Shown here piece after piece: positions 23,970 to 25,877 of a stretch of DNA of 64,000 nt. Each line of letters starts with the position of its first letter. Position 1 is the first letter of the stretch. The notes under the pieces are model-generated. The model worked only from the letters and a program-made list of their open reading frames with translations, was not told the DNA's origin and ran no database searches. The stretch is from Silicimonas algicola (GTDB lineage: Bacteria; Pseudomonadota; Alphaproteobacteria; Rhodobacterales; Rhodobacteraceae), in assembly GCF_003148765.1 (NCBI RefSeq), contig NZ_QGGV01000001.1, positions 62,001 through 126,000 on the forward strand, written 5' to 3'. The translations under genes were made by a program, and so were the position numbers.

Positions 23970-24092
23970 ATGGCACGGACGACCCTGACCCTGGCCGGAA
24001 TGGCAGCGCTGGCGCTGGCGTCGGCGCTTGCCGTGGCCGACAGCTCGACGCTCTGGAGCGGTGCGCCGAGCGAAATCGCGGCGCGGCGCTGA
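23970..24092 (+). CDS. Small secreted or membrane peptide (40 residues)
   Basis: An ATG at 23970 preceded by AAAAGAGGTGCGGC opens a 40-codon frame. The peptide (MARTTLTLAGMAALALASAL, then AVADSSTLWSGAPSEIAARR) has a basic N-terminus and a hydrophobic stretch followed by AVA-D, which looks like a signal peptide with a 16-17 residue mature tail, or one membrane anchor. Its TGA ends exactly one base before the stop of the convergent nnr gene. I know no family for it. A real gene is plausible because of the ribosome site and the signal-like composition, but it is short. Confidence 0.45.
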   Translation: MARTTLTLAGMAALALASALAVADSSTLWSGAPSEIAARR

Positions 24093-25877
24093 TCAAAGGC
24101 CGAGCGCGCGGAAGACCTTCGGCAGTTCCTCGGGGATGTCCTCGGCGATGAGACCGGGGCCGAAGGAGAGCGCGCATTCGGTGTGGAGCCAGGCGGCGGT
24201 GCCGGCGGCGTCGAAGGGGTGCAGGCCGCGCGCGAGGAGGCCGGTTATCATGCCGGACAGCACATCGCCCGAGCCTGCGGTGGCGAGCCAGGGCGCGGCG
24301 CGCTCGTATGCGCTGGAGTTGATGGAACATTGCCCGGACGGATGAGCGATCACGGTGTCGGGGCCTTTGAACAGGATGGTGCAGCCTGCGCGTTTTGCCG
24401 CTTCGCGGGTGGCGTCGACCTTGGAATAGGCGGGGCCTGTCGTCGCGGGGGCGTCGAGTTTCTCGGCGATGTCGGGGAAGAGGCGTTTGAACTCGCCGGC
24501 GTGAGGGGTGAGGACGCAGCCTTGATGGAGCGCGTCGAAGAGGACCTGCGGGTTGCGCTCGAATCGGGTGAGGGCGTCGGCGTCGAGGACGACGGCTCTG
24601 GCGGGGCGGGGCCCCGGCTCGGGGGCCGGGGGGGTGGTGCTGGCGGGTCGGGGCCCCGGCTCGGGGGCCGGGGCAGCGGTGCTGGTGGGGCGGGGCCCCG
24701 GCTCGGGGGCCGGGGCAGCGGGGTTATGTTCGGAGCGGTCCTGCCCCGGACTGGATCCGGGGCCTCGCGGCGCGGTCGCCTTCAGTGCCGCCAGGACGAG
24801 GGCCTGGGTGTCGGCGCCGAGGCCTAGGCCGGGACCGAGGCAGAGCGCGTTTATCCGCTCGTCCTCGAGCGCTTCGGTCAGACCAGGGGCGCCGTCGAGA
24901 GGGCGGCACATGATGGCCGTGACCTGCGAGGCGACTTCCCAAAGTGCGGTCTGCGGGCAGCCGACGGTGACGAGGCCCGCGCCGATGCGCAATGCGCCAC
25001 GGGCGGCAAGGCGGGCGGCGCCGGTCTTGCCGGGACCTCCGGAGAGGATCAGGGCGTGGCCGTGGGTGTATTTGTGGACGTCGTCGTGAGGGGTCTTGAC
25101 CCTCGTTTTTGCAAGCCGCATCACCTGATCGAATTGAAGCTCACGATCAAAAGCCGATGTAACTCTGTCAGAGTAGGGAAAATTGCCAAAAGCGCCGGAC
25201 CCTACACCGGCGGGCAGACCGATGTCCTTGCAAATGACCTTTCCGGAAAGGGTAGGACCGAAGTCCAATAGGTGACCGTGCTTAAAGCCATGAAACGTCA
25301 CAGTCATATCTGCAAGGAAGGGTGCTCCCAGCACTTTTCCACTGTCGGAGCACAAGCCGCTTGGTATGTCGATTGCGACGTGCCTAAGGTTGCCGCGAAG
25401 TCCGTCGCCAGGGACGCTTTCCGCTGTGTCAGCGTATTCTTCCCCTAGATCGACAGGCCGCGTAAGTCCAATTCCGAAAAGTGCATCGAAAAAAACGTCC
25501 GGGTACGCGACGCGGCGCTCAGGGTGATAGAATGTTCCGGAGAACGCGAAGGTCTCCCCCAACTCCCCCCACCGCTCATAATTCACCTTTGCATCCGGCG
25601 GTAGCTTCTCGGGGTCGCCGTAGAGGAACACCTCCACCTCCCAGCCCCACTCCTTCAACAACCGCGCCACGACGAAGCCGTCGCCGCCGTTGTTGCCCGG
25701 TCCGCAGAGCACCACGGCCTTGTGCGAGGTCGTCGCAAGCTCCGGCCATTCCTCGAAGATCGCCTCGACGACGCCGCGGCCGGCGCGCTCCATGAGTTCG
25801 AGGCCGGTCACCTCGCCGGAAGCGATGGCGGCCTGTTCGATGGCGCGCATCTGCGCGGCGGTCAGGAGTTCGGTCAT
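24093..25877 (-). CDS. nnr: Bifunctional NAD(P)H-hydrate epimerase / ADP-dependent NAD(P)H-hydrate dehydratase
   Basis: 594 residues from the ATG at 25877 (MTELLTAAQMRAIEQAAIAS). The N-terminal third is the epimerase domain (VVLCGPGNNGGDGFVVARLL); the C-terminal part is the ADP-dependent dehydratase (ILSGGPGKTGAARLAARGAL, VVLDADALTRFE, AGSGDVLSGMI). Together they repair hydrated NADH and NADPH. The dehydratase is interrupted in frame by about 55 residues of Pro-rich sequence with three PAPEPGPRP units, encoded by palindromic DNA repeats at about 24600-24765. The insertion lies between LKATAPRG and RAVVLDADAL, probably on a surface loop. The frame is intact, so the enzyme is probably still functional. 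Confidence 0.92.
   Translation of the reverse strand: MTELLTAAQMRAIEQAAIASGEVTGLELMERAGRGVVEAIFEEWPELATTSHKAVVLCGPGNNGGDGFVVARLLKEWGWEVEVFLYGDPEKLPPDAKVNYERWGELGETFAFSGTFYHPERRVAYPDVFFDALFGIGLTRPVDLGEEYADTAESVPGDGLRGNLRHVAIDIPSGLCSDSGKVLGAPFLADMTVTFHGFKHGHLLDFGPTLSGKVICKDIGLPAGVGSGAFGNFPYSDRVTSAFDRELQFDQVMRLAKTRVKTPHDDVHKYTHGHALILSGGPGKTGAARLAARGALRIGAGLVTVGCPQTALWEVASQVTAIMCRPLDGAPGLTEALEDERINALCLGPGLGLGADTQALVLAALKATAPRGPGSSPGQDRSEHNPAAPAPEPGPRPTSTAAPAPEPGPRPASTTPPAPEPGPRPARAVVLDADALTRFERNPQVLFDALHQGCVLTPHAGEFKRLFPDIAEKLDAPATTGPAYSKVDATREAAKRAGCTILFKGPDTVIAHPSGQCSINSSAYERAAPWLATAGSGDVLSGMITGLLARGLHPFDAAGTAAWLHTECALSFGPGLIAEDIPEELPKVFRALGL
24612..24715. repeat. Three 42-base-spaced palindromic repeats inside nnr
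   Basis: The 20-mer CCCCGGCTCGGGGGCCGGGG occurs identically at 24612-24631, 24654-24673 and 24696-24715, spaced by exactly 42 bases (14 codons). Each copy is an inverted repeat (CCCCGGC / GCCGGGG around a 6-base centre). On the coding strand each reads as PAPEPGPRP. The spacing in multiples of three keeps the nnr frame open. Confidence 0.9.
24744..24762. repeat. Fourth palindromic element inside nnr, different sequence
   Basis: CCCCGGACTGGATCCGGGG is an inverted repeat with arms CCCCGGA and TCCGGGG and a 5-base centre. It lies 28 bases beyond the triple repeat and at the other edge of the inserted Pro-rich segment; it is translated as part of GPGSSPGQD. GC-rich palindromes of this look are frequent between genes in many alphaproteobacteria, from memory and not checked here. 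Confidence 0.75.

Follow-up and report, generated by a model that had tools for sequence, protein, structure and literature searches.

Introduction

Several systems are known in which palindromic DNA enters bacterial genes. The Rickettsia palindromic elements (RPEs) are repeats found in frame in unrelated metabolic genes, where they are predicted to be compatible with the protein fold, as stated in the part of a MITE review that cites Ogata 2000 and 2002 (PMC10969869). In-frame MITE insertions in Coxiella, described in a passage of PMC5896051, form a parallel. REPs, according to the relevant passage of PMC12306157, seldom overlap coding regions. In the sections of Di Nocera et al. 2013 (PMC3733652) used here, REPs are sorted into a GTAG and a CGTC type and intragenic REPs are given for several species. 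The CGTC elements of that account, which are sometimes intragenic, have a stem of 8–9 bp and a loop of 4–5 nt, with an unpaired tag at one end (CGTC, TGTC or CCTC) and a short tail at the other (mostly CCA), and the stem almost always starts with AT. Different REPs at about the same recB site in two Xanthomonas are also mentioned there. Given these intragenic REPs and the recB site, REPs in frame, and even their occurrence at a common site, are no novelty in kind. For the CGTC elements the same sections describe what seems to be the lack of a dedicated transposase, and Table 1 of the paper shows no association with a transposase gene.

Here we describe an insert of palindromic elements in an nnr gene, the recurrence of such inserts in related bacteria, and small nuclease genes that have palindromes of this kind at their ends.

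The nnr Gene and Its Insert

The window, that is the whole stretch of 64 kb which was analysed, contains an nnr gene with the following features.

24093–25877, minus strand: nnr, bifunctional NAD(P)HX epimerase/dehydratase, stop codon included; open reading frame of 594 aa with ATG at 25877
24600–24761, minus strand: insert, residues 373–426 (PGSSPG...RPA); from frame reading, loop comparison and the AlphaFold model
24597–24717 (approximate), no strand: palB tandem array, unit 42 nt, about 3 units, read as (A)PAPEPGPRP(T/A)ST; repeat family D1, spacing 42, 42
24612–24631, no strand: palB copy 1, CCCCGGCTCGGGGGCCGGGG; arms 7 bp
24653–24674 (20-mer 24654–24673), no strand: palB copy 2; arms 8 bp, loop 6 nt
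24695–24716 (20-mer 24696–24715), no strand: palB copy 3; arms 8 bp, loop 6 nt
24743–24763, no strand: palA, GCCCCGGACTGGATCCGGGGC, stem 8, loop 5; dispersed CCCGGA..TCCGGG family

The gene product contained the epimerase and dehydratase domains of a bifunctional Nnr with their conserved residues. YjeF_N (PF03853) and Carb_kinase (PF01256) both scored over the Pfam cut-offs, as did TIGR00197 and TIGR00196 over theirs; the full-length equivalog NF007856 gave 191.7 bits, below its own cut-off of 703. The nearest solved folds were Tm0922 (2ax3/3rs8) and other NAD(P)H-hydrate dehydratases.

An earlier note on this DNA had described three identical 20-mers exactly 42 nt apart and a fourth, different GC palindrome. 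Both observations were confirmed: the 20-mers are interrupted palindromes with arms of 7–8 bp and a 6-nt loop, and the fourth palindrome is palA. The limits of the palB array were judged from the sequence. With the adjoining residues the insert amounts to 58 aa above the baseline of empty loops, close to the 55 or so added residues of that note. It lies between LKATAPRG and RAVVLDADAL, and the frame is open throughout. On the gene strand palA comes reversed and is followed by palB in forward orientation, an order that differs from the tails-in order of the nuclease units described below. The tail of palA is an asymmetric CTC, as in the copies beside GIY-YIG genes. Perfect palindromes (arm of at least 8, loop of at most 6) occur 15 times in the 64-kb window, and three of these are crowded into 111 nt of the insert, so that chance is not the cause. 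An Rfam search of positions 24000–25400 gave no match near the gathering score.

An AlphaFold model of the window Nnr (mean pLDDT 77.7, pTM 0.57, 41 rows) places the insertion point in a segment of low confidence: pLDDT was below 50 at residues 373–416, between the helix 355–367 and the strand 428–432. In alpha/beta folds of this kind a helix-to-strand turn is usually located on the side opposite the active site.

The nnr Loop in Related Bacteria

The loop was compared in 110 nnr loci, 30 from genomes of the window's own family and the best 80 of 135 related loci; by record title the relatives are mostly Rhodobacteraceae, a few MAG titles being broader. Loci and genomes are cited by our L and G numbers where necessary, G000 being the window's own genome. 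Delimited by tblastn anchors, the loop had both anchors in 109 of the 110 loci, and the only out-of-frame gap among these 109 was in a fragmentary MAG (L137). After L137 (gap not a multiple of three), L053 (N-terminal part missing) and the duplicates L063 and L090 (of L034 and L032, respectively) were left out, 106 distinct in-frame genes remained, with loops of up to 69 aa above the baseline. Alignment with the relatives revealed that the insert is absent from the nearest relative found (L061, 75% identical).

The loop was extended by at least 3 aa in 50 of the 106 genes. Perfect palindromes as defined above were present in 26 of these 50 and in four of the remaining 56 loops. Altogether, the loops contained 50 perfect palindromes in 10,323 nt, compared with 3.5 expected from 20 synonymous-codon shuffles (maximum 8). 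The rest of nnr showed 30 in 162,447 nt, against 35.8 expected by synonymous shuffling, and further palindromic inserts outside the loop were rejected in bulk on this count. Palindromes were observed to cluster near residues ~226–233, in the linker that joins the epimerase and dehydratase domains, in L032, L036, L067, L092, L103 and L136.

A class of element was recognised in 30 of the 106 loops, while codon shuffling gave 3.4 (maximum 10). By pattern, the classes were as follows.

GTAG-tagged (or CTAC): 17 of 106 loops; 2.6 expected by codon shuffling
CCCTCCCC/GGGGAGGG: 7 of 106 loops
palA-type, GYCCCGG/CCGGGRC: 5 of 106 loops
palA-type together with CCCTCCCC-type: 1 of 106 loops (L086)

Another 22 loops were longer by at least 3 aa and contained no recognised class, and 54 had neither extension nor class. 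Outside the loops, in 162 kb of nnr, the class patterns gave 0, 0 and, for GTAG, 8 matches. The nnr loop is a hot spot for unrelated classes of palindrome. Parsimony required at the fewest 14, 7 and 6 changes for the three classes (27 in all), gain and loss being indistinguishable on the tree, which was built without the loop by a short search with SH-aLRT only and had 15 of 103 inner branches starred.

The change of occupant is most directly visible in the sisters L033 and L089 (SH-aLRT 100). Their genes share 922 of 1062 bases before the loop and 435 of 489 after it (87–89%); one loop carries two CCCTCCCC palindromes and the other palA-type elements. L089 (CP059262.1) is a MAG titled Exiguobacterium profundum, probably in error, as its nnr groups among the Rhodobacteraceae. 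L081 and L084 form a pair with a filled and an empty loop. No target-site duplication was readable in the filled/empty nnr pairs. A clade of Silicimonas/Boseongicola MAGs (L073, L077, L078, L098, L108) has a common loop extension of 27 aa, which may be an old decayed insert because only L078 has a perfect palindrome there.

Among other families of the class an nnr match was obtained in 19 genomes. Since the two pieces of the gene lie at most 30 nt apart in 15 of these 19, the loop being unreadable in G056, G060, G063 and G073, the hot spot looks, within that sample, like a trait of the window's family.

Dispersal of palA and palB

The earlier note had raised the search of the genome for both palindromes, and the outcome was divided. 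The 22-mer GGCCCCGGCTCGGGGGCCGGGG, which contains the palB 20-mer, occurs three times in the 4.34-Mb genome with 2 mismatches allowed, and all three occurrences are in nnr; a palB-type variant was present in valS. Because the 22-mer is confined to nnr, the three palB copies are best read as one element that was tandemly duplicated and not as three insertions. The palA family, on the other hand, is dispersed. Its exact core CCCGGANNNGATCCGGG was found at four places in the own genome, nnr counted. The pattern GCCCCGG-N-CCGGGGC was found at 13 places, three of them in nnr, compared with 2–3 for the reversed control. Some of the 13 places resemble terminators (L024 and L028, a stem followed by a T run) and not members of the family. 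The view of the earlier note that the insertion is of a mobile type, and not an old linker, is supported by the dispersed palA family and by the empty loop of L061.

In 15 genomes a palA-like pattern was present in 2–97 copies per genome, against 0–7 for the reversed pattern, the excess being small in some (9 versus 7 in G093). Judged by such reversed-pattern controls, the families of the loop elements are dispersed in many of the relatives' genomes. An identical palB was found in Roseovarius sp. MMSF_3359 (L081), again in the nnr loop. PalB also has kin of like build, for example GCCCCGGTTCGGGGACCGGGGC in G010 and G083: its loop is unchanged, one stem pair differs in a compensated manner, and a palA-type palindrome is located 40 nt away. 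In G010 and G140, and once in G003, directional palindromes often form plus/minus pairs with starts 39–41 nt apart, a recurrent defined dimer.

A Second In-Frame Case in valS

Inside the valS frame of the own genome, identified by PF00133, a palA-type core with one mismatch lies together with the palB-type palindrome at G000:C3 179920–179968 (within G000:C3:179918–179968; L174:1119–1169). In frame the pair reads ...KSVPAGEPAPAGEPGPREVPDQARDM.... In an alignment with ValRS structures from the PDB the segment was longer in the own genome. By match to a regular expression the valS loop was readable in 15 loci out of 25, among them the own one; between the fixed motifs it comprised 61–90 aa. Because the loop length varies, only the palindrome and not the length marks the valS insert. 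Perfect palindromes were found in two of the 15, the own locus and L261, the latter with another, GTAG-like stem.

Nuclease Genes Framed by Palindromes

At G000:C3:325706–325726 and 326140–326160 of the own genome two inverted copies of palA type (together L173:1207–1661) enclose an intact gene for a GIY-YIG protein of 95 aa (G000:C3:325776–326060), in which PF01541 was confirmed. A decayed GIY-YIG gene at G000:C3:325706–326160 was ruled out by this intact reading frame and the Pfam match. The other GIY-YIG match in this genome is a UvrC-sized frame of 636 aa. The small protein is a candidate mobiliser of the palA family.

With one query and an E-value of 0.001, small GIY-YIG matches were obtained in 21 of 198 genomes of the family, the own one counted, and none in 177. 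From 25 matches 22 loci were evaluated; L230 and L233 (flanks cut) and L236 were left out. Of the 22 loci, 19 had a perfect palindrome no more than 250 nt from the match, and 16 had one at each end. Without the own gene, from which the idea arose, these numbers were 18 and 15 of 21. The palindrome density was 4.8 per kb near the GIY-YIG genes compared with 0.42 per kb farther out. As control served the ends of nnr genes alone, in the 61 of 80 loci with full flanks: palindromes were found at any end in 14 of 61 and at both ends in none (Fisher p 1.4e-12 for both ends). Random placements had palindromes at both ends in 0.7%. Judged by their tails the outermost copies were mostly inverted, 16 of 18 upstream copies being forward and 13 of 17 downstream copies reverse. 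In a set of small GIY-YIG loci from family and class, five of which recur among the 22, 13 of 18 had a perfect palindrome within 500 nt, compared with 2 of 10 UvrC-like loci.

The stem sequence of the flanking palindromes differs by genome and the arrangement is constant. Some of these copies are typical CGTC REPs with a CGTC or TGTC tag and a CCA tail (L191 and L228; L187 nearly so). Gene-less pairs with the tails inward were detected in nnr inserts, namely those of Defluviimonas denitrificans (L090/L032), L085, L086 and L089.

Directional palindromes were searched in 28 genomes: 17 of the family with a small GIY-YIG gene, the four genomes with the weakest match (G132, G167, G204, G214) not being among them, seven of the family without it, and four of other families. 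With copies beside the GIY-YIG gene included, the pattern was observed in 16 of the 17 and in one of the seven (p 3e-4), a rough contrast because the seven consist of two known palindrome carriers and five genomes from the head of the list. The directional pattern was absent from G051, G052, G060 and G062, which belong to other families and all have a small GIY-YIG gene. G010 contains 44 directional copies and no small GIY-YIG match; therefore, copies outlive the nuclease or need none in cis. Dispersal was also expected for the flanking TCCTCGGG palindromes of G025 and G051, which were found by exact pattern nowhere else in those genomes.

DUF559 genes were examined in the same way, using the best 8 of 18 matches by E-value and leaving out L242 (flank cut). 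Palindromes of the CCCTCCCC class were near in six of seven loci, and at both ends in only two; L239 has the variant stem CCCTCTCCC. DUF559 genes between CCCCTCCCC/GGGGAGGGG palindromes are located at L177:118–544 and L178:1005–1598, and eight relatives have palindromes of this class in their nnr loop.

Discussion

The following course of events would explain the locus. A REP-like element consisting of palA and palB would have landed in the dehydratase domain of Nnr, in the loop that leads from the helix to the strand VVLDAD, and the palB part would then have triplicated in tandem in steps of 42 nt. Once translated, the insert would form a Pro-rich, disordered loop, and the enzyme would tolerate it since it falls in a turn at the surface and leaves the reading frame open. 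Unrelated palindromic elements have entered this loop many times in related bacteria. Each element is probably a copy, without the gene, of a unit that in the palA class consists of a small GIY-YIG gene between two inverted palindromes. The corresponding enzyme would probably be a DUF559 nuclease in the second class and a RAYT in the third. By cutting or nicking at the palindrome, the nuclease would probably enable it to copy. We regard this account as a whole, from the landed element with its palB triplication to the tolerated, recurrently targeted loop and the kinship with nuclease units, as highly probable. From the open frame it follows that the insert should be translated, and the protein is presumably made and working. 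The palindromes framing the genes suggest that the nuclease mobilises the elements, and RAYTs may serve the GTAG class. The hot spot probably acts as a filter: elements would land widely, and those in frame in the Nnr turn would survive. Selection of this kind, rather than a real target preference, is the reading that we favour.

Another reading is that slippage of GC-rich codons lengthened an ancient Pro-rich linker and that its palindromes simply follow from the use of Pro/Gly/Arg codons. Local duplication is indeed evident from the 42-nt tandem and from the restriction of the 22-mer to nnr. Nevertheless, shuffles that preserve the protein yield 3.5 loop palindromes where 50 were observed, the loop elements match families with copies scattered through many of the genomes concerned, and the stretch is missing in near relatives, so that this origin is scarcely credible. 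Alternatively, the palindromes might be kept for a function in RNA or DNA, such as an mRNA hairpin, a pause site between protein segments or a gyrase or nucleoid site, and the loop would then be regulated and not just tolerant. The convergence of three unrelated classes on one site would fit such a role, as would the folding of the insert, which is more stable than that of shuffles (z −2.35; equalled by 3 of 200). We consider it improbable, given that 54 of 106 genes lack both a class and an insert of at least 3 aa and that sister species differ. Moreover, the site coincides with the low-confidence loop of the protein model, and a similar variable loop with palindromes exists in valS (2 of 15 loci).

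The link to the nucleases might be incidental if palindromes gather beside small acquired genes in intergenic gaps and another transposase, a RAYT or an IS, moves them. Genomes that bear palindromes often have no small GIY-YIG gene, and CGTC repeats are reported without a dedicated transposase in the sections of PMC3733652 cited above. Mere coincidence is rather doubtful, however, since 16 of 22 loci, but 0 of 61 controls and 0.7% of random placements, have palindromes at both ends. The mostly inverted outermost copies, the arrangement that stays while the stem changes by genome, and the different class that adjoins the DUF559 genes argue in the same direction. A wider proposal starts from a mobilising nuclease: small GIY-YIG proteins, with DUF559 for another class, would be the missing mobilisers of alphaproteobacterial REPs, encoded in transposon-like units with inverted-palindrome ends. 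Gene-less copies would spread from these units, also into reading frames, and the loops of Nnr and ValRS would change their occupant between sisters and thereby yield new disordered segments. We hold this to be slightly on the favourable side of an even chance.

Reports of in-frame REPs have dealt with individual genes. In the present case a single protein loop acts as a natural trap, in which sampling across relatives reveals repeated arrivals of at least three unrelated classes and their turnover between sisters. It offers direct access to the way in which such DNA gives rise to protein sequence. The class found in the window points to a small nuclease gene that has the same palindromes at its ends, and this candidate enzyme makes the question of a CGTC transposase, as posed in the cited sections of PMC3733652, testable at the bench.

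Comparison with Known Systems

The nnr insert resembles the RPEs in being an in-frame insertion into a conserved protein gene that is absent from homologues. It differs in that it occurs in GC-rich genomes of another order, with three classes on one loop, and in its description: the units have ~20 nt (20–42 nt) and are single or paired, compared with ~150 bp for an RPE. Because of this unit length we do not claim membership of the RPE family.

With the CGTC REPs the elements share their occurrence as alphaproteobacterial palindromes, the CGTC tag and CCA tail of the L191 and L228 copies beside GIY-YIG genes, and the presence of several to many copies per genome, as for the palA-like pattern. 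PalA (stem 8, loop 5) is within the range of stem and loop and palB (stem 8, loop 6) outside it. The stem of the palA class, GCCCCGG or GTCCCGG, differs by having no AT start, and its tail is CTC. The third loop class resembles the GTAG REPs and REPINs: a GTAG (or CTAC) tag stands at one end of the palindrome, beside a GC-rich stretch, in the 17 loops listed above, and several inverted pairs have tags that face each other, for example in L062 and L083. This class is known here from its palindromes alone, and its nnr copies differ from GTAG REPs in lying inside a coding region.

In the open-access literature, preprints aside, we found neither GIY-YIG or DUF559 genes joined to REP-like repeats nor a loop repeatedly hit by three classes. 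Thus, both the hot spot and the nuclease link appear to be new. A close counterpart of the latter is the REPtron, a RAYT gene flanked by REPs. Like a REPtron, the GIY-YIG units consist of a small gene for a DNA-cutting enzyme between inverted palindromes, on both sides in 16 of 22 loci, which also occur dispersed without the gene, in 16 of 17 genomes of the same family although not in G025 or G051. The enzyme here is a GIY-YIG or DUF559 protein and not a tyrosine transposase.
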